Positions 3,001 to 27,686 of a stretch of DNA of 30,021 nt are shown here, in pieces. The DNA is from a virus. The position numbers and the translations under genes were made by a program. Position 1 is the first letter of the stretch, and every line of letters starts with the position of its first letter. Location of the stretch: IMG/VR virus record IMGVR_UViG_3300042892_001878, positions 1 to 30,021 of that record, one strand, 5' to 3'. The notes beneath the pieces are model-generated. The model did not search any database. It was not told where the DNA came from and saw nothing but the letters and a program-made list of their open reading frames with translations.

Positions 3001-6000
3001 GAATATGATTTAGCAGTGTAGCTCTTTTGTATCTATCATAAATTCCTGCTCGAGATCCTTGGCGGATTATACCAGCAGCTAGATCTTCCCACAGTAGTAA
3101 ATTATTTTTTGTATATGGTGCTGAACCGTATTGGTCTTCCCACCAGCTAGGTTGTTGACTAAATCCCAACATTTCCCAGGGACAACGATGTGGTCTATCA
3201 GTATCATACAACCAAGTATACACTCCTCTCCACCATCCAGGTAAATTTAACTGCCCGGTAGGATCCCCCATATTTGAATAGGTGTAGGTAAAAGAATCTT
3301 CACTATCAAAAAATGTGTTAGTTAGATAGTCTACATTTGTTTCACTAAACCATCTTAGAAATTCAGAACTGATTACGCTGTCTAAATCTTGTTTAGTGTA
3401 TGTAGATGATCCGTAGTATCCTCCAAGAATATTATCTTGACTAAACAAATCTTCTGTATATTCTTGTTTAATGTTATTGTAGATTCGTTTTTCTAATTCT
3501 AATAATACATCATCTCGGAAATCACCGTAGGCTACTGTGATACTGCCATCGTGACCTCGAATAACATTGATAGGAGTTACGTAGGTATCATCTAAAAACA
3601 AAGACGGAATATAGGTTTTATATAAACCTAATTTTGAAGGAGTTGGCGGAATAAAACAGAAACTTGAAGAAACATATTCTTTTATTTGAATAATATCTCC
3701 TTGTGTTAGTGCTTTGGAAATACTAACAAATCCAAACGTATCATTAAATGTATAATCGATACCATGAATCAACTGCACATTGTTAATATAGATATATACT
3801 GCTGTTCTGCTAAGTTGGGTTAAGTTAAATTTTGCGTTTAATGCAAAAGTTATAATTTCTGTGTCTTCTACAACGTATTCTTTGAGATTGTAGGCGCCGC
3901 TGCCCACCATATCAGAATCTGCAAATGCATCTTTTTGCGTTTTAACTTTAGACATAGTGGCCAATATTTCATCAACAAATCCAACAGGATCTAGATTATA
4001 TATGGCGGTTTCAGCAAATTTAATAAAGTTATTTTTAAATTCTGTATAAGATTTTTTTGCGTACTGAATAGATTTAATAACGTTTACGTGTTTGTCGCAC
4101 AGTAACATTATTGCTGTAGGAGTAATTCCTGAATGTTTTAGAAATCTTCTTGAAAGATTTTGATATCCGGTAAGATCTCTTAGATTACTCGAGCCTGGAT
4201 ATGATCCGTTAAATTGATCAAATAAGTCTAGCGCCGTTGAAACATGATCGACTGCCTGTCCTAGAGTAAATGTTTTTACTTCGCTGTTCAGAGGATTTTT
4301 TTCAAGTCCTACTGGAATCTCATAATATCCCAAGTGAGGATCTGCATCTGCAAAAACTTTAATTGTAACAATGTCATTTATTTTAAAACTGGTAGGAAAC
4401 GTAAAAATATTCTGATTTCTAGTGTAGCTTCCAGAATATTTTATTCCGTTAACGTAGATTAAAATTTTAGAAATCTCATCGTCTTGAACGTCTGTCCATT
4501 TGATACCATTGCTAACAATTTGTGTTGAAACTTCAGTAACTGTGGTACTGTAAATTACCGGTTGTAAGTATGTTCGATCAGATTTAAGCCATCCGTTGGC
4601 ATAACTTCCAGTATGTGTAAATTTGTAATAACCTTGTCTAATTGTCTTGTTGAATACTTTTTTGTCAAAATTATAATTAAATGTATCTACATCCCAGTCA
4701 AAATTAAATTCAATATCTCCTACATTGTTGATATTTAGATAACTTAAGCTAAATCCTAATTCGGTATCAACAATACTGTTTCCAACTTTATAGCTTACTA
4801 GTTTAGTTCCTAAGAAACTGCTAACAGGATATGTGTCCATGTCTCCGTAACTGACACCATTATCGTCAAATACATCAAATAACGGACTTTGATTTACTGC
4901 GGTTTTCTTTTGACTGGCTACCCAAGATGTACCGTTAAAGTGATACATTATTCCTTTGTTTAATAGGCCGCGTCTAACAAACACTCCGTCACCGATGGTA
5001 GAAGTTGCGTCGGTAGTTTCTACTAAATTGATTTGTCTACGGTTATTGTGAATTATAAAGTTCACTGTGTAAATTCTATTATTGGCTAATGTGTCGGTAT
5101 CTGCTGTGACCAATAATCTAGCACCATTAAATAATTCTTCACCGTCGACATTGTATCCAATACTGCCTTCTATGGTTGAAAATACGTCGGTGGTAAAAGT
5201 ATCAATAAAATCAACTGGCGTTTTTGCTAGGCTACCGTGATTGAATAACTGCAGATTTGAAGAAAATTCAATAATAGGTCTTTTGGCTCTCGCTGTTTCA
5301 ATCGAATCAAACTCGCTATCGTTAAAACTGTGTGCCTGTTCTAGAACCGATCGGTGAAACCATCTGTTGTATCTACTCCAAGGATTTGAATCTTGGCTGG
5401 CTCTATTAATTGTAATATAGTCTTTGAATTCTGGATATGTGGCCGCATCATCAAAGGGCTCTGTGTCAAATCCGCCATCGTCAAACAACACTTCTAGACT
5501 TGTTGTGCTAAGGGTCGGGGGAGATAAATCTTGAAATCTAATTAATCTAATAGATTCTCCAACACCTTCTATTACCCAAGTGTCTGCGGAATATTTTGTA
5601 GGTGTTACTAGACCAGAAAATCTAACTTTCATACCGTTGGTAAATGTAATACCATTACTGCTGACATATGTGGTTTTACCAATAACTTCGTTAGTGATAT
5701 CAATTTTGGTATTTGATTCAATATCAGCAACAAGGAATCTACCAAATCTATTAATATCTGTGGCGCTTTGATAAAATAATACATCGGGTGCATCTAACGG
5801 TACAGTAAAAGTCAAAGTACCATTAGTTGCTCCTTGCCCGGTAATTCCTGTATTATAGTCTAATGCAGTAGCTTGACTAGCTGCTTCGATATATTCCCAA
5901 TCTTGACTATCTTCGTCTATGGTACTTCCATCAGTTACAGGAATAAAAGTTTTAGCTTTCCATAACTTGTTATTGAATACTGCAAATTGACCTTGCTGAT

Positions 6001-21768: not shown

Positions 21769-22893
21769 ATGAGAATACAAGAAATATTAATTGAATCACA
21801 TCAACTTGACGAAGGTCCAATTCTAAATAAAATTGGATCTGCTGTGGGCAAAGGTGTAGGTGCGTTGGCTAAAGGTGTCGGAGCAGTAGCAGGTGGTGTT
21901 GCTGGACTTGGCGCAGCAGCTAAAAAAGGATTTCAGGCAGGTAAAGCTACTGTGGCCAGCGCAGGGGATGATGCAGATCCAGCAGCAGGTGGTGCAGCAG
22001 CAGGTGCCGGTGGCGCAGCAGGTGCAAAACCTGCTGCAGGAAGTGGCGGAACTTCTACAAAACCCAAAGGTTTTTTAGCGGGAGTAAAAGCAGGTCAATC
22101 TCAAGGATTATCAGCATTTAACGATCCAAATGTAGTTGGCAGTTCTACACCAGCAGGTAGTTCTGCTGGAGCAGCAGACGATGAAGATCCAGCACCAACA
22201 GCGGGAGCTACAACTCCACCTAGTGCTACAGATATCAACAAGGCCGGACCAAAAGGCACAGCGCAAGCTAAGCCAATACAAGGTACGGTTGCAAAACAGG
22301 CAGCTGCTAAAACTGGCGCTGCACTTGCAGGTCAAGATCAAGCACAGGCTGGTCAAACAATGTACACTCAAGTAAAAGCAAATATTGATAAGCTAGATAA
22401 AAAAGGCAAGCAAAGAATTTTACAGTTGCTACAAAAATCAATGGCAGCTCCAGCAGCAAAACCCGCAGCAGGTGCTGCGCCGGCAGCAGCTCCAGCAGCT
22501 ACACCTGCTCCAGCAGCAGAACCAACAGCGCCTGCGGCAGCGGCTCCTGAAGCACCAGCAGCTGAACCAACAGCGGCAGCACCAGCTAATACAATGGCTA
22601 ATGCACCGGTAAGCAAAACAAATACAGCTAAACCTGGAAATCCAAATGCAGCACCTGCCGCAGAACCACCAGCAGCGCCTGCCGCACCTACAAAAACAGG
22701 TGGTAAAGTAGCAGGACAACTAAGTCAAACACCAGGCGCTATTGCTAAACGTGCTAAACGCACAGCAGCAGCTTCTGCTAAAACAGCAGGTGCAGGAGCA
22801 TTTGGTCAAATGACCAAACAAGTTCAGACAGCCGGAAAAATTAATACTGGCAGTATGGTACTTGAAGGGTTTAGTCTTTTTAGAAAGAAATAA
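21769..22893 (+). CDS. Ala/Pro/Gly-rich probable internal head protein with targeting-like N-terminus
   Basis: 374 residues. It starts 1 nt after the previous stop codon, with AGGAAAAG upstream. The N-terminus MRIQEILIESHQLDEGP resembles the short capsid-targeting peptides of T4 internal proteins, and LDE|G (13-16) fits the gp21 prohead-protease consensus. Then follow GSAVGKGVGALAKGVGAVAG, which is Gly-zipper-like; an Ala/Gly/Pro linker; a charged helical module at 199-225 (YTQVKANIDKLDKKGKQRIL); a long low-complexity Ala/Pro/Glu/Thr part (about 226-310); and a basic end with VLEG near residue 365, a weaker cleavage candidate. The module at 199-225 and the GP-starting segment are shared with the preceding protein. 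The linker composition argues for a flexible chain packed with DNA. A terminator follows directly. Confidence 0.7.
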   Translation: MRIQEILIESHQLDEGPILNKIGSAVGKGVGALAKGVGAVAGGVAGLGAAAKKGFQAGKATVASAGDDADPAAGGAAAGAGGAAGAKPAAGSGGTSTKPKGFLAGVKAGQSQGLSAFNDPNVVGSSTPAGSSAGAADDEDPAPTAGATTPPSATDINKAGPKGTAQAKPIQGTVAKQAAAKTGAALAGQDQAQAGQTMYTQVKANIDKLDKKGKQRILQLLQKSMAAPAAKPAAGAAPAAAPAATPAPAAEPTAPAAAAPEAPAAEPTAAAPANTMANAPVSKTNTAKPGNPNAAPAAEPPAAPAAPTKTGGKVAGQLSQTPGAIAKRAKRTAAASAKTAGAGAFGQMTKQVQTAGKINTGSMVLEGFSLFRKK

Positions 22894-22904
22894 ACAAAAT
22901 AAAA

Positions 22905-22925
22905 GGACTCCTAAGAGTCCTTTTT
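22905..22925. terminator. Bidirectional intrinsic terminator
   Basis: GGACTC-CTAA-GAGTCC (22905-22920) followed by TTTTT on the plus strand and preceded by AAAA (22901-22904), which reads as a T-run on the minus strand. It lies exactly between two convergent units: 12 nt after the stop codon of the internal head protein and 2 nt beyond the stop of the minus-strand frameshift extension. Confidence 0.88.
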
Positions 22926-22926
22926 G

Positions 22927-23160
22927 TTAGAAGAACGGTAAGTTTGTTTTCTTGGTAGTTTCTAGATTGTCTTTAATAATCTCGCCAACAATTTCTCTTT
23001 CATCCCAACTAAGATTCATTGCTTCGGCATAGCTCATACCTCGCATATACCAAGCCAGTTGGAGGGCTTCTTTCTTGATCTTCCGTACCTCTTTTTCCAT
23101 CTTTTCGGCTTCCTGTAAGATCTCCGGTACGGAAAGTTTTAAGATCTTACTGCGAAAAAA
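22927..23160 (-). CDS. -1 frame extension of the gp26-like gene (tail-assembly chaperone, gpT/gp51-like); or separate small gene from ATG 23100
   Basis: The -1 frame is open from the slippery site in the gp26-like gene to TAA at 22927-22929, adding 75 residues: basic helix (KMEKEVRKIKKEALQL), AWYMRGMSYAEAMNLSWDER, and a tail ending TNLPFF. I recognise the AWYMRGxSYxEA and KxxLPFF-like pattern from small proteins that follow gp26 in T4-like marine phages. No ATG, GTG or TTG lies between the slippery site and ATG 23100; translation starting there would give 57 residues and has AGGAAG 8 nt upstream. The frame stays open through RSKILKLSVPEILQEAEK before that ATG, which favours a fusion product of about 357 residues, but both routes may be used. 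Confidence 0.75.
   Translation of the reverse strand, partial: FFRSKILKLSVPEILQEAEKMEKEVRKIKKEALQLAWYMRGMSYAEAMNLSWDEREIVGEIIKDNLETTKKTNLPFF
23115..23160 (-). promoter_or_regulatory. Probable programmed -1 ribosomal frameshift site
   Basis: On the minus strand the gp26-like codons AAT TTT TTC contain the heptamer T TTT TTC (23160-23154) in the X XXY YYZ register, so both tRNAs can re-pair after slipping back one base. Three bases later GTAAGATCT (23150-23142) can pair with AGATCTTAC (23123-23115), nine perfect pairs, with the zero-frame stop TAA (23141-23139) in the loop. The spacer is shorter than the usual 5-9 nt; opening two pairs would restore it. AGATCT is itself a palindrome, so part of the match could be chance. 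Confidence 0.65.
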
Positions 23161-23999
23161 TTTGATTGATCCATAGTTACTGGCATCAGAAATTCTGTTT
23201 CACAACTAGTACATTTGACTTCTTGAGCAGGAATATCAATCTTGCTTTTTAATGCCTGAACATGATCTGAAATAGCATTGAAAATTTCTTTAGGCGAATT
23301 GTGAATAAAGTTTTTTATTTCGGTTTCATCGGTTTCAATACCATCTGGAGTTTCTATCTGTGCTACACATTGAGCAATTACATCAACTGTTAACTGTGTA
23401 AGTTTGCTAAAACTCTTGCCAAACTTGTCTAATTTTTCTTCATCGCTGAGTGTTTCGTCGTTGATCACTCCAAAGATACGCTGTTGCTCTAGACTTTTTA
23501 AACTGGTCTGTGTCATCTCTAGATAGGTATAGGGTCTAACATAAACAGTTAATGGATCTACAACAACTTTGGGATCAAACTGAAATTGATTTAATTTTTC
23601 TAACCAAGTGTTGAGATTGATTTCGTAATCATTTTCTGCATTGCAATTTGGACAATTTGTGCTGACTTCCATTTTTTCACCGTAGGTTGCAATACGTACA
23701 GCTACCAATGCCGCATCAACATCAATGCTAGGCATCTTCCAAGGATCTTGAATTGCAGGAATACAACTTTTGAGAACTTCTACAGTGCTTTGACCATTCA
23801 ACAGTGCATCTGGAGTTTTAAACATCAGTTCATCTTTGGCAGTCATTGCATAGACAGCATAGTCGCCTGTGGTACTTATGTCCAGAGCATCTTTAGCGTA
23901 GTATTCACCCTTAGAAGGCAACCTAATATAAATTTTAGGCTGTCTGTACCAATTAGACAACATGGTCTTCTTGGGCTGTAGGGGTTGGTTGTTTTCCAT
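23139..23999 (-). CDS. 26: Baseplate hub/tail-assembly protein gp26-like, zinc-binding
   Basis: 286 residues from ATG 23999. That start is preferred because GGAG lies 9 nt upstream; an in-frame TTG at 24014 falls on that ribosome binding site. The N-terminus (NWYRQPKIYIRLPSKGEYY) and AMTAKDELMFKTPDALLNGQ are the family signature of the T4 gp26-type baseplate hub assembly proteins. Two CxxC pairs (C116/C119 in CPNC, C263/C266 in CTSC) would bind one zinc ion. In T4, gp26 and gp51 act in hub assembly and are not major parts of the final tail. Its place next to the tape-measure-like gene and its -1 extension make it equivalent to the G/GT tail-assembly chaperones of other phages, which is my inference. 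It is the only minus-strand gene among the plus-strand late genes here. Confidence 0.82.
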   Translation of the reverse strand: MENNQPLQPKKTMLSNWYRQPKIYIRLPSKGEYYAKDALDISTTGDYAVYAMTAKDELMFKTPDALLNGQSTVEVLKSCIPAIQDPWKMPSIDVDAALVAVRIATYGEKMEVSTNCPNCNAENDYEINLNTWLEKLNQFQFDPKVVVDPLTVYVRPYTYLEMTQTSLKSLEQQRIFGVINDETLSDEEKLDKFGKSFSKLTQLTVDVIAQCVAQIETPDGIETDETEIKNFIHNSPKEIFNAISDHVQALKSKIDIPAQEVKCTSCETEFLMPVTMDQSNFFAVRS

Positions 24000-24012: not shown

Positions 24013-24020
24013 AATAAATA
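24013..24020 (+). promoter_or_regulatory. Late-promoter-like AATAAATA for the tape-measure-like gene
   Basis: CCAATAAATACT on the plus strand; the predicted start near 24027 leaves a 42-nt leader to the ATG at 24069, which has CCGGAAAA as a modest ribosome binding site. It faces the minus-strand element at 24036-24043. Confidence 0.5.
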
Positions 24021-24068: not shown

Positions 24069-27000
24069 ATGGCCCAAAAAGTAGAAATTGACATCCCTGG
24101 CGTTGGCAGAGTCACTGCTGACAATGCCGCATCAGAACATACTTTAAATGAATTGTTAAAAGTGATGCAGGGCATCCAAAAACAATTTAAATCAGGTACA
24201 GGACCTGGTGGATCTGCCGGTGCCGGAGCTGTTGGCGGCGCAGCTAAACCTGCTGCCGGAGCTGCTGCTCAAAATAAAGTTCAACAACAGCAGACACAAC
24301 AAACAGGAAAAAGCAGCCAGGCTTTTACTAAACTGGGAATAGCCACAGGTGTAGCTGCTAAAGGTTTTGACAAACTATCAACAGGAACAGGAATAGTCAC
24401 TGGTAGTTTCTTGGGTCTTGCTGGTAGTGCAACTGCACTAATAAATCAGTTTGCCAATATGGGCAACAGTCTAACCAGCGCCGCACAGACATTTAATTCA
24501 ATACCAATTGTCGGAGGATTACTTGCTGGAGTGTTTGGCGCAGTAGCAGCCGCTGCTGAAAAACAACTGGGATCTTATCAAGCATTGGCCAACTCTGGCG
24601 CTACGTTTGGCGGCAGTATGAATGCTATGACTAATGCTGCAAGTGGCGCAGGATTAACAGTAGAACAGTTCAGTAAGATTGTAGCTGCCAACGGTCAAGC
24701 CATGGTTGCATTAGGTGGCACCACAGAACAAGGTGCCAAGCGATTTGCTGACCTAGGTAAGAAAATGAAAACTTCTGGACTTGGAGACGAGTTGCTGAGA
24801 ATGGGATATTCAACTGAAGGTGTAAACCAAGGTATGGCCAGTTATATTCAAGTAATGGGATCTAACGGCAGATTGCAAAATGCCAGTACAGCACAACTGG
24901 CTCAAGGATCAGCAACCTATATGAAAGAACTGGATGGCCTGGCCAAGATCACAGGTTCTACTAGAGAAGAAAAACAAAAAGAAATGGAAGCATTGGCCAA
25001 AGATGCACAGGTTGAAGCTGCCATGCAGCATCTGGATGACAAACAACGTCAGCAGATGTTGAGTTACATTACCAGTTTTCCAAAAGCTCAACAAGGTGCT
25101 ATTAAAGACATGTTGGCCACGGGTACTATTACTACAGAAGAAGGCGTGAAAATGGCTGCCATGTATCCTGAACTGGCAAGACAGTCTCAGGCATTTGGTA
25201 GAACACTAGCTGCTGGTGGAACCATTAGCAAAGAAGCAATGAACACTGCTAAAAACAGTGCTATTGCAGAAGCTAGAGAACGAAATAAAAATCTTAGTAG
25301 TGTTGGTAAGTTCAACAAAGAAATGGGAGATACATATGCTGGCGGTGCGCAATTAGCAAGGCAAAGTATTGATGGATTATCTAAAGCGTCAGCAGAACAA
25401 GCTACTACAATTAAAAACGCTGATCAAGCAGCCGCACTGGAAAAATCTAAACAAAGACTAGCTGAATTTAGCAATGCATTTACCAACTTCTTGGCAGGCA
25501 GCGGCCTAATTGAAGTTATGATGGGAGCTTTAGAAACATTAGGTGCTGTAATTACTGCTGTGGCTATACCTGTGTTTAATGTGTTTGCAAGTGTGCTAAA
25601 ATCAGTTACGCCGTTTATCTCTGATACTCTAGTCCCAGCAATTCAAGTTTTAGGATTTTGGATATCAGAAGGTGTTCTACCAATACTGATGAAATTGGGG
25701 AACATTATTGGAACTATGTTGAATCCATTGATGGAAGGCACAGGCAGTGTTATTTCGGGAGTTCTTGAACCTGCACTCTATGGAATTAGTGATTTTATTG
25801 AAGACAATCTAGAACCTGTGATGGCGGTGCTTATGGGAGCAGTTATTGGTCTTACTGCTGCTAAAGTTGTATCTACTGTTTCTGCCTGGGCCAGTTCAGC
25901 AGCTGACATGGCAAAAACCGCGGCATCAGTTCCGTTTATTGCATCAATGATAGCTATGGCTGCTAGTGTTTGGGCTACTGTGGCTCCTTTTCTAGCACTT
26001 GCTGCTCCTGTGCTTCTCACAGTGGCTGCTATAGGATTATTAGTATACGGTGCTAAAAAGTTAGGCGTTGATTTCAAAGTGTTAAGCGATGCTGCTAGTT
26101 TTGTTGGTAGTCTTATTAAAACTGTATTCTTGCAATTTCAAAAGGGATTGTTTAGTCTACTGAATAAAATTCCCGGAATGAGAGGAGACTTTGACGAAGC
26201 TATCAAAGGTGTTGATGAACAATTAACGTCCGAAGGTCAAAAACGTAGTCAGCTTACCGACGATATGGGTAAGCGTATGCAAGACAATCAAGATAAAGAT
26301 AAAGCAGACAAAGCTGCTCAAGCCAAAGCTGAAAGAGAAGATCTTAGAAAAACAAATCCAGAAGAAGCCAAGAAACTAGACGACAGAGATAAACGTGATG
26401 CAGAAAGAACAAAACGTAGCGAACAGCGTGAAAAAGATGCCATTGAACGTAAAAAGCAGGCTGAATTAAAAGCTGTTGGAGACAAAACCGAAGCTGAGAA
26501 AAAAGCAGAAGAAGCCAAAAAAGAAACTAAAGAAGTGGATATGTCTGGTCCACAGGCCATGCTTAAATCATTTAGTGATCAACAAAATGGATTTCTTAGC
26601 AAGAAAATAGAAGCTGCTGGAGGTGGTGGAGGTGGTGGCAAAGCTACATCGGCTCCCGGAAAAGCGTCATCTGGTGGAGGTGGTGGAGGTGGTGGAGGTG
26701 CCGCATCATCTTCCGGTGGTGGAGGTGGTGGAGGTGGTGGATCGGCTAGTGGAGATATGAGCGGTCCAAAATTACCAGCTGTAGGTGATAAACAACCAAC
26801 TGGACCATCACCAGACAGCATGCAGGCTGATGTTGGCGATCTATCAAAATATCTAAAACTTCAACCTGGCGTAAATCTACAAGGTCTAGAACCTGGAGTT
26901 CAAAAACGTCTTGCCGGAATGGCATCGGAATATTTTAATTCCACTGGTCAAAAGATTCAGATTAACACTGCCTATAGAGATTCAAAAGAACAAGCAGAAC

Positions 27001-27686
27001 TATTTAAAAAGTACGGATCACCTAGAGCTGCACCTCCGGGACGCAGTAAGCACGAAGTTGGTCTAGCATTTGATATGAATTCTGCAGATGCTAACAAAGC
27101 AGTGGGTCTAGGACTATTTGACAAATTTGGATTTGCTCGTCCGGTTAGTGCAGAAGCCTGGCACGTTGAAGCTAGAGAAGCCCGAGGAGGATCTCCCGAT
27201 AATCCAGCAGCACCTGGCAAAGGAGTAATGGTCGCAGGCGCTGGCGGAAAAGCAACAAGTCCGGATTCGGGTAAACCTTCGGCAAAAAACGGAGGAGTTA
27301 TAAAAGGACCGATGAGTGGGTATGGAGCAAACTTACACGGCACAGAAGCAGTAGTTCCATTGCCTGACGGGAAAAAAATTCCAGTGACTGTAAACGGAAT
27401 GTCTGATTTTAAATCTGTAGTATCGTCCGCACAAGGAGGTTTATCAGCATTAGCAGCCGGCGCTGATGCATCAACTCAATCAACAGCTGATACTACTGCT
27501 ACCAGTGCATCTTCTAGTGCAGACAGTGGGTCTGGTCAAGAAAGTGCAGTATCGCTGCTATCTTCGTTAAATAACAAGATGGACCAACTAATATCTATCA
27601 ATGGACAATTGGCCAATATTAATAGCGACCAATTACGTGTGCAAAAAGGATTTAGTTTTGGTGATGTGTTTAAATCACCTGTATAA
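24069..27686 (+). CDS. Tape-measure-like tail protein with C-terminal M15 (VanY-like) peptidase domain
   Basis: 1205 residues. The start is VEIDIPGVGRVTADNAASEH followed by a helix. Hydrophobic Ala/Gly-rich segments lie at about 95-170, 480-560 and 590-665; a long charged helical region follows (about 730-850). Three glycine runs (about 850-895) form a flexible linker. The domain at about 940-1045 has SKHEVGLAFDMN (H995, D1002) and EAWHVEA (E1029, H1032), the zinc ligands and base of the M15 family of D,D- or L,D-peptidases that cut peptidoglycan stem peptides. The last 90 residues are Ser/Thr-rich, then a helix ending GDVFKSPV. Its position between the chaperone-like gene and the portal, size and hydrophobic segments fit a tape measure that also opens the cell wall; T4 gp29 is only 590 residues and has no such domain. 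A tail-associated hydrolase other than the tape measure is the alternative. Confidence 0.72.
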   Translation: MAQKVEIDIPGVGRVTADNAASEHTLNELLKVMQGIQKQFKSGTGPGGSAGAGAVGGAAKPAAGAAAQNKVQQQQTQQTGKSSQAFTKLGIATGVAAKGFDKLSTGTGIVTGSFLGLAGSATALINQFANMGNSLTSAAQTFNSIPIVGGLLAGVFGAVAAAAEKQLGSYQALANSGATFGGSMNAMTNAASGAGLTVEQFSKIVAANGQAMVALGGTTEQGAKRFADLGKKMKTSGLGDELLRMGYSTEGVNQGMASYIQVMGSNGRLQNASTAQLAQGSATYMKELDGLAKITGSTREEKQKEMEALAKDAQVEAAMQHLDDKQRQQMLSYITSFPKAQQGAIKDMLATGTITTEEGVKMAAMYPELARQSQAFGRTLAAGGTISKEAMNTAKNSAIAEARERNKNLSSVGKFNKEMGDTYAGGAQLARQSIDGLSKASAEQATTIKNADQAAALEKSKQRLAEFSNAFTNFLAGSGLIEVMMGALETLGAVITAVAIPVFNVFASVLKSVTPFISDTLVPAIQVLGFWISEGVLPILMKLGNIIGTMLNPLMEGTGSVISGVLEPALYGISDFIEDNLEPVMAVLMGAVIGLTAAKVVSTVSAWASSAADMAKTAASVPFIASMIAMAASVWATVAPFLALAAPVLLTVAAIGLLVYGAKKLGVDFKVLSDAASFVGSLIKTVFLQFQKGLFSLLNKIPGMRGDFDEAIKGVDEQLTSEGQKRSQLTDDMGKRMQDNQDKDKADKAAQAKAEREDLRKTNPEEAKKLDDRDKRDAERTKRSEQREKDAIERKKQAELKAVGDKTEAEKKAEEAKKETKEVDMSGPQAMLKSFSDQQNGFLSKKIEAAGGGGGGGKATSAPGKASSGGGGGGGGGAASSSGGGGGGGGGSASGDMSGPKLPAVGDKQPTGPSPDSMQADVGDLSKYLKLQPGVNLQGLEPGVQKRLAGMASEYFNSTGQKIQINTAYRDSKEQAELFKKYGSPRAAPPGRSKHEVGLAFDMNSADANKAVGLGLFDKFGFARPVSAEAWHVEAREARGGSPDNPAAPGKGVMVAGAGGKATSPDSGKPSAKNGGVIKGPMSGYGANLHGTEAVVPLPDGKKIPVTVNGMSDFKSVVSSAQGGLSALAAGADASTQSTADTTATSASSSADSGSGQESAVSLLSSLNNKMDQLISINGQLANINSDQLRVQKGFSFGDVFKSPV
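26619..26741 (+). repeat. GGT/GGA triplet runs encoding poly-glycine linker
   Basis: Three blocks of GGTGGTGGAGGT-type triplets (26619-26638, 26672-26700 and 26715-26741) encode runs of 7 to 9 glycines separated by short Ala/Ser/Lys segments in the tape-measure-like gene. Such triplet runs are prone to length change by slippage. They separate the helical rod from the peptidase domain. The long proline-coding frame on the other strand is only their shadow. Confidence 0.85.

Follow-up and report, generated by a model that had tools for sequence, protein, structure and literature searches.

The gp26-like gene on the minus strand of the window (the whole stretch of viral DNA analysed, 30,021 nucleotides) ends in a slippery heptamer, T TTT TTC, and is followed by an open -1 frame. 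A programmed -1 frameshift is by far the best reading of this arrangement, judged from the sequence and its relatives. The frameshift very likely gives rise to a short and a long product, which probably act as a chaperone pair in the manner of lambda G/GT in the assembly of the baseplate hub or tail. The features of the site, their conservation, the covariation in the downstream stem, the selection on the -1 frame and the homology of T4 gp26 and gp51 are direct observations.

The proposed frameshift site

The 0-frame end of the gene reads AAT TTT TTC GCA GTA AGA TCT TAA. The first-pass annotation had described a T TTT TTC in the correct register four codons before the stop, a nine-pair stem just downstream whose loop contains the stop codon, and a -1 frame of 75 codons that has no start before 23100. 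All of these are present. The heptamer, of the form X XXY YYZ, is found base for base at 23160-23154 in the register of the 0 frame, positions 23150-23142 pair with 23123-23115, and the first start of the -1 frame is the ATG at 23100-23098. No ATG, GTG or TTG precedes codon 18 of this frame (read in locus L009, which is identical to the window here), and upstream the frame is closed 15 codons before the slip. A slip at the heptamer would join residues 1-282 of the gp26-like protein to 75 further residues, giving a long product of 357 aa, the size that had been predicted.

Table 1. Features at and around the end of the gp26-like gene in the window
Feature	Position	Strand	Remarks
gp26-like gene (short product)	23139..23999	-	286 aa, ATG at 23999; in-frame TTG at 24014
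Slippery heptamer T TTT TTC	23154..23160	-	in register with the 0 frame
Stem 5' arm (GTAAGATCT)	23142..23150	-	begins 3 nt past the heptamer
Stem 3' arm (AGATCTTAC)	23115..23123	-	compensatory changes among relatives
0-frame stop TAA	23139..23141	-	inside the stem loop
-1 reading frame, 75 codons	22930..23154	-	C-terminal extension of the predicted long product; stop TAA 22927-22929
ATG at codon 18, the earliest in the -1 frame	23098..23100	-	candidate independent start in the window
1205-aa protein, VanY domain, putative tape-measure or virion protein	24069..27686	+	divergent neighbour, context only; PF02557 E 8.3e-08

The gp26-like protein belongs to the family PF12322, T4_baseplate (E 1.8e-16, 61.0 bits against a curated cut-off of 24.5), and matches the baseplate hub family phrog_150 with an E value of 1.3e-20.

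One point about the surroundings needs correction. Many tailed phages make two tail-assembly chaperones by frameshifting just upstream of the tape-measure gene, but here the putative tape-measure gene (24069-27686) lies on the opposite, plus strand, so the gp26-like gene is divergent from it and not upstream of it in an operon. The VanY-type peptidase domain of the neighbour sits near its C-terminus. On the other side, a perfect hairpin with T runs on both strands (AAAAGGACTC ... GAGTCCTTTTT) was read from the sequence at 22901-22925, in the space that separates the -1 frame from the convergent gene at 21769-22893, and resembles a bidirectional terminator.

Conservation of the heptamer

Two IMG/VR searches, each represented by the best 80 of more matches, gave 132 window-type loci whose proteins are 36-100% identical, and T TTT TTC is in register in all 132. 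The same was found in 80/80 cyanophage-type IMG/VR loci, again the best 80 of more matches. When the C domain alone served as query, the heptamer was present in 80/80 viral loci (best 80 of more matches) and in 9/9 contigs of bacterial genome bins; many of the viral loci lie on the same contigs as the window-type loci. Because only the best 80 of more matches were kept per search, the sample leans towards the query. Dereplication at 85% at the nucleotide level reduced the 132 loci to 77 and the 80 to 65, and every one of the remaining loci has T TTT TTC.

The use of this codon pair elsewhere in the same loci is very different. In ORFs of at least 200 codons in the dereplicated loci, a pair of phenylalanines is encoded as T TTT TTC in 23 of 231 instances in the window type and in 6 of 215 in the cyanophage type. 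Set against this, 132/132 and 80/80 loci with the heptamer are not a matter of chance, and a chance heptamer was rejected on this control.

Since the window is a metagenomic contig and poly-T is common in A+T-rich phages, one might suspect that the T run arose by chance, or that an error in sequencing or assembly has split one gene in two. Such a run followed by a -1 frame recurs, however, in 21 named phages as T TTT TT(C/T/G), and T TTT TTC in 212 IMG/VR loci among the matches listed (142 after dereplication), with the FF codons, the register, the stem and the -1 frame all conserved. Chance or error is refuted by this conservation, and the probability left to it is practically nil. The first-pass annotation had held that conservation of the heptamer and of the open -1 frame would support a frameshift, and both are conserved in divergent relatives.

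The -1 frame as a coding sequence

The -1 frame is 75-77 codons long in 75 of the 76 dereplicated window-type loci that are not cut by a contig end, and its consensus in this group is RsKILnLslPEIL...WYMRGLSYSE...ENLETTKKTGLPFF. The one exception among the 76 is locus L128 (gp26 59% identical), in which most of the C domain is lost. L128 equals L129 and L046 around the slip and diverges after C-frame codon 8, from about position 4830, by deletion, recombination or misassembly. On the one strand searched, the rest of L128 holds no copy of a 60-nt piece taken from the C domain of L129 (best 27/60).

Selection was measured on -1 frames of equal length, which were available for 69 window-type loci (75 codons) and for 20 and 16 cyanophage-type loci. 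In the window type, pN/pS in codons 6-17 is 0.50 in the -1 frame versus 1.02 and 1.67 in the other frames, and in codons 18-74 it is 0.27 versus 1.51 and 1.71. The cyanophage-type values are 0.31-0.32 and 0.17-0.23 in the -1 frame and 0.59-4.69 in the others. Changes in codons 6-17 are limited in every frame because the 3' arm of the stem also lies there. The frame past the 0-frame stop is thus open and under selection at the level of protein, and the protein-like character ascribed to it earlier appears as purifying selection among the relatives.

The C domain might instead be made as a separate protein with no frameshift at all, by stop-start coupling or from an internal or non-AUG start. 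In its favour, Phosso, Atu_ph07, 121Q, KVP40, Cr30, phiM12, RL38J1 and D493 have an ATG that either shares bases with the gp26 stop or comes shortly after it, and D493 has the overlapping ATG and no heptamer. An ATG also lies within ten codons after the slip in 60/63 cyanophage-type loci, where a free C protein could therefore also be made. With GTG and TTG counted, a start before codon 10 is possible in 42 of the 75 window-type loci, in 27 of them within codons 0-9 and in 15 upstream of the slip, and in the window the codon-18 ATG is preceded by AGGA at 10 nt, as read from the sequence.

The counts over the whole group point the other way. The first ATG comes at codon 10 or later in 62 of the 75 window-type loci on which codon positions were counted (63 in the cyanophage type). 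An SD-like motif stands before an ATG, GTG or TTG in 5/75 window-type loci and is missing in the other 70, in a test that covered starts from the slip onwards, in codons 0-39. Codons 6-17, which lie ahead of the ATG of the window, are under purifying selection in the relatives. A separate start would also leave unexplained both the invariant T TTT TTC and the fact that T4 gp51 is a fusion. From the counts of ATG codons, start codons and SD-like motifs, a separate start is unlikely as the main route in the window-type group and possible in single loci. As the sole route it was rejected on the start-codon and SD counts together with the selection in the -1 frame. The reading without any frameshift is very improbable, and the -1 frameshift is preferred.

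The downstream stem

The 55 nt after the heptamer of the window fold at -11.9 kcal/mol with a z of -2.16 (locus L009). For the same stretch the mean z is -1.53 over 76 window-type loci and -2.36 over 64 cyanophage-type loci. In the window-type alignment, which holds 72 sequences (71 distinct) with L128 and the surviving L136-L140 excluded, 89.3% of the cells of the stem pair, and 52 cells are changed on both sides versus 13.8 in shuffles (0/500). When the partner arm is slid by 1-3 columns, pairing is at most 50.7%.

The cyanophage stem is a different one, with 11 pairs and beginning five bases after the heptamer. Over all 65 loci (63 distinct), 80.7% of its cells pair, and 29 are changed on both sides versus 11.1 in shuffles (0/500); slid, it pairs in at most 48.1%, while a slide of +2 still gives 26 cells changed on both sides. 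The figure of 0/500 is not a probability in either group, the sequences being related, and the score for paired cells favours the stems because they were picked from folds of the same sequences.

In two of the five covariation measures the stems hardly exceed the shuffles. Pairs changed on both sides number 4 versus 4.1 in the window type and 5 versus 3.3 in the cyanophage type, and pair types number 14 versus 12.0 and 14 versus 11.6. A conserved and covarying structure is found downstream of the heptamer in both groups. The usual spacing between a heptamer and its structure is 5-9 nt, and the window-type stem, only 3 nt after the heptamer, falls short of it. The stem is predicted to stimulate slipping.

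Proposed mechanism and function

In the proposed mechanism most ribosomes would read the gp26-like gene to its stop and produce the 286-residue form. A fraction, with tRNAs on TTT and TTC, would slip back by one base at the heptamer, with the hairpin 3 nt downstream as an aid. The slipped ribosomes would read 75 more codons and produce a long form of about 357 residues. The short and long forms would then pair as chaperones in the assembly of the baseplate hub or tail, like lambda G/GT. That slipping occurs, its rate, and the roles given here to the stem and the long form we infer from sequence. The frameshift that the first-pass annotation had put forward is supported, with the slip itself a prediction.

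At the sequence level the two predicted products share their N-terminus through the -1 slip, as a G/GT-type pair does. A position directly upstream of the tape-measure gene, typical of G/GT, was not found in the window, and T4 gene 26 is without such a position too. For this reason the pair is described as working like G/GT and as a member of the T4 gp26/gp51 family, not as a homologue of lambda G.

The AlphaFold model of the gp26-like protein of the window has a pLDDT of 88.4. Foldseek retrieved nothing for it from the PDB at E <= 0.001, and a sequence search of the PDB with the protein gave a best E of 0.58. VIA-align lists the HK97 tail assembly chaperone 2ob9_B against residues 11-112 of the model (Z 5.9, rmsd 5.4, 85 aligned residues) at rank 15 among unrelated rows, a level that the tool calls middling, and the likeness of the N-terminal part to the HK97 chaperone fold is suggestive. 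The model of the C domain consists of two long and two short helices (pLDDT 92.1), and its best VIA-align Z is only 3.7. The C domain has no Pfam match and a best E of 0.049 in PHROGs; the C part of phage GAP32 matches phrog_18291, a family of unknown function.

Two CxxC pairs of the gp26-like protein, C116 with C119 and C263 with C266, are conserved in at least 90% of 60 relatives, so the protein may bind metal. The two reference alignments hold 60/78 and 57/75 of the prepared references. A fold search of viral models with gp26 also links uncharacterised proteins of 384-686 aa in the giant phages phiRSL1, RSF1, RP12, phiEaH2 and Special G, which are possible unnoticed gp26 counterparts on the strength of the models.

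The frameshift could be real and its products be assembly factors specific to the hub, without G/GT-like action on the tape measure. PMC3004832, in its accessible part, counts T4 gp26 and gp51 among the chaperones of hub assembly, and the conserved CxxC pairs, the missing Foldseek match and a gene that is not adjacent to and upstream of the tape-measure gene would all fit such a role. It is at odds with the making of a short/long pair by a -1 slip, which marks G/GT-type genes (so also PMC12846349, in its available text), with the published assignment of tail assembly chaperones in T4-like phages (Vladimirov 2022, as far as the accessible text goes) and with the listing of the HK97 chaperone by VIA-align. 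Products confined to the hub are rather unlikely, and the G/GT-like pair is the preferred reading.

Named phages and the two genes of T4

Named-phage searches matched 64 and 1163 records, and 26 named phages were hand-picked. A single gp26-like gene is found in 22 of them, and 21 of these 22 have T TTT TT(C/T/G) before a -1 C frame. The heptamer is T TTT TTC in Atu_ph07, Phosso, PA5oct, 121Q, GAP32, Munch, P-SSM2, S-PM2, KVP40, Aeh1, DLP6, SCTP-2, RaK2, Vibrio 2.275 and Aeromonas 65. It is T TTT TTT in HTVC008M, Cr30, phiM12, RAS14 and XacN1, and T TTT TTG in RL38J1. The gp26-like gene of SCTP-2 is known from tblastn only.

The exception is Vibrio phage D493 (L263 1672), whose single gp26 gene lacks the heptamer and whose C frame is preceded by an ATG that shares bases with the gp26 stop. 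The pattern that the first-pass annotation had held to speak against a frameshift, a lost heptamer together with a small protein that is retained and has a start of its own, turned up in this phage only. D493 is a possible case of loss of the slip.

T4, RB49, 44RR and Acj61 are organised differently. Each carries a pair of PF12322 genes, one per strand, and near the end of gene 26 none of the four has a T TTT TTN. Slip and second gene occur together in 0/26 of the hand-picked phages. Above its cut-off the PF12322 profile found one match in each of 11 IMG/VR contigs, which may be fragments, and one in each named phage except these four (two each) and SCTP-2 (none). An additional match below the cut-off is present in contig G011 and in phage Acj61. 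With at most one match above the cut-off in each, the idea that the one-gene phages hold another gp26-type gene was rejected. The downstream ORF was likewise rejected as a positional counterpart of T4 gene 51, since in T4 it is gene 25 that comes after gene 26, and gene 51 lies in divergent orientation. A T TTA AAG does stand in register in T4 gene 26, 35 codons from the end of the gene, and has no counterpart at the position of the slip.

T4 gp51 consists of a whole PF12322 domain (residues 1-201, E 3.9e-52) and a 48-residue extension. The first-pass annotation had held that gp26 and a small downstream protein, separate in T4, are here one recoded gene. The recoded fusion is supported by the sequence; the other half has to be revised, as T4 gp51 is no small separate protein but a second PF12322 domain with its extension. 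The C-terminal part of T4 gp51 matches phrog_634 (E 1.2e-23), and phrog_634 is the -1 frame behind the gp26 slip in all six non-T4 references (P-SSM2, S-PM2, KVP40, HTVC008M, Cr30 and phiM12). The small gp51 genes that are annotated separately in cyanophages and the like sit behind the slip, and the extension of T4 gp51 matches the cyanophage C frame by profile (hhalign 92%).

For the window-type C domain the profile comparisons by hhalign give 99.4% with the named jumbo phages and 1.4% with the tail of T4 gp51. Compared with the cyanophage type, the window type alone gives 0.7%, the window type with the named jumbo phages added 24% and the jumbo phages alone 51%. In addition, phrog_634 is absent from the PHROGs matches of the window C domain at E <= 1. 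With profile matches this weak, common descent of the window C domain and gp51 rests on position and not on sequence.

A comparison published in 2010 (PMC3037559) states, in the part of it available, that the gp51 of cyanophages and marine vibriophages is without its initial ~200 residues and that Aeh1 alone has no gp51. In Aeh1 (L261 2217) a C frame lies behind T TTT TTC, and the "missing" gp51 may be this unannotated -1 frame. One slip site would account for both the short gp51 of cyanophages and vibriophages and the absent gp51 of Aeh1, and the lack of ~200 N-terminal residues fits a product whose first part is gp26. This suggests that the long product is overlooked when the C part is annotated as a gene of its own, as short or as absent.

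The arrangement would be old in the T4 superfamily. It is likely that the slip is the ancestral and still prevalent route to a short and a long hub chaperone in jumbo, cyanobacterial, rhizobial, vibrio and uncultured lineages, and that T4-type gene 51 is a duplicate of gene 26 that hard-wires the frameshifted fusion, the direction of change being deduced from this distribution. In T4, RB49, 44RR and Acj61 the slip would have been replaced by gene 26, for the short form, and gene 51, for a second gp26-type domain with the extension. Where an ATG just follows the slip, the gene could yield three products, a free C domain besides the short and the long form. If this history is true, the small gp51 of cyanophages is a fragment of the long form and gp51 is not really missing in Aeh1.

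Comparison with known systems

In 2004 Xu, Hendrix and Duda reportedly described tail assembly chaperones made by a -1 frameshift, lambda G/GT among them. As in lambda G/GT, the short ORF of the window belongs to a tail-assembly gene and carries its slippery heptamer a few codons ahead of the stop, and the predicted long product is the short product with a C-terminal extension from the -1 frame. Unlike in lambda, the protein is of the PF12322 family with CxxC pairs, the gene is divergent from the putative tape-measure gene and not upstream of it, and the downstream hairpin encloses the stop.

The T4 pair is homologous within PF12322, with gp51 the longer by a C-terminal extension, and in this it resembles the predicted short and long forms. 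The difference is that T4, like RB49, 44RR and Acj61, encodes the two proteins separately, one on each strand, and lacks T TTT TTN, whereas the window has one gene with a predicted slip. The suggestion that gp26 and gp51 are the T4-type counterparts of G and GT is supported, and a T4-like chaperone pair had already been published (Vladimirov et al. 2022, in the portion available). The cyanophage type shares with the window a single gp26, a -1 C frame, T TTT TTC in 80/80 loci (best 80 of more matches) and a covarying hairpin. It differs by the ATG that usually comes just after the slip (60/63) and by a C domain of about 60 aa that has no clear profile match to the 75 aa of the window.

A -1 slip at a poly-T near the end of TAC-N, as here, has also been proposed for the TAC locus of Adele (Vandenendeviridae, PMC12846349), and, by the accessible text of that paper, the genomes examined there have no premature stop in the -1 frame. 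The Adele motif is GTTTTT, in another phage family and upstream of the tape-measure gene.

The tail assembly chaperones of T4-like phages were assigned by Vladimirov, Gautam and Davidson (2022, Virology 566:9-15, known here in part). That work is cited in the available text of the PRFect paper (PMC10885494) for T4-like phages of which some, instead of frameshifting, encode the short form in one gene and the fused long form in another, and in that of the Adele paper (PMC12846349) for poly-T slippery sequences in T4-like TAC-N genes. The pattern across the superfamily may thus be partly or largely contained in Vladimirov 2022. For the site in window-type or jumbo phages, no description was found in the open-licence literature searched. 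The site in the window is a strongly conserved case of a known kind of -1 frameshift. Its value is that it would explain the gp26/gp51 arrangement across the T4 superfamily, including a gene 51 that is oddly short or missing, and the phages with one gene offer a direct test of gp26/gp51 function.
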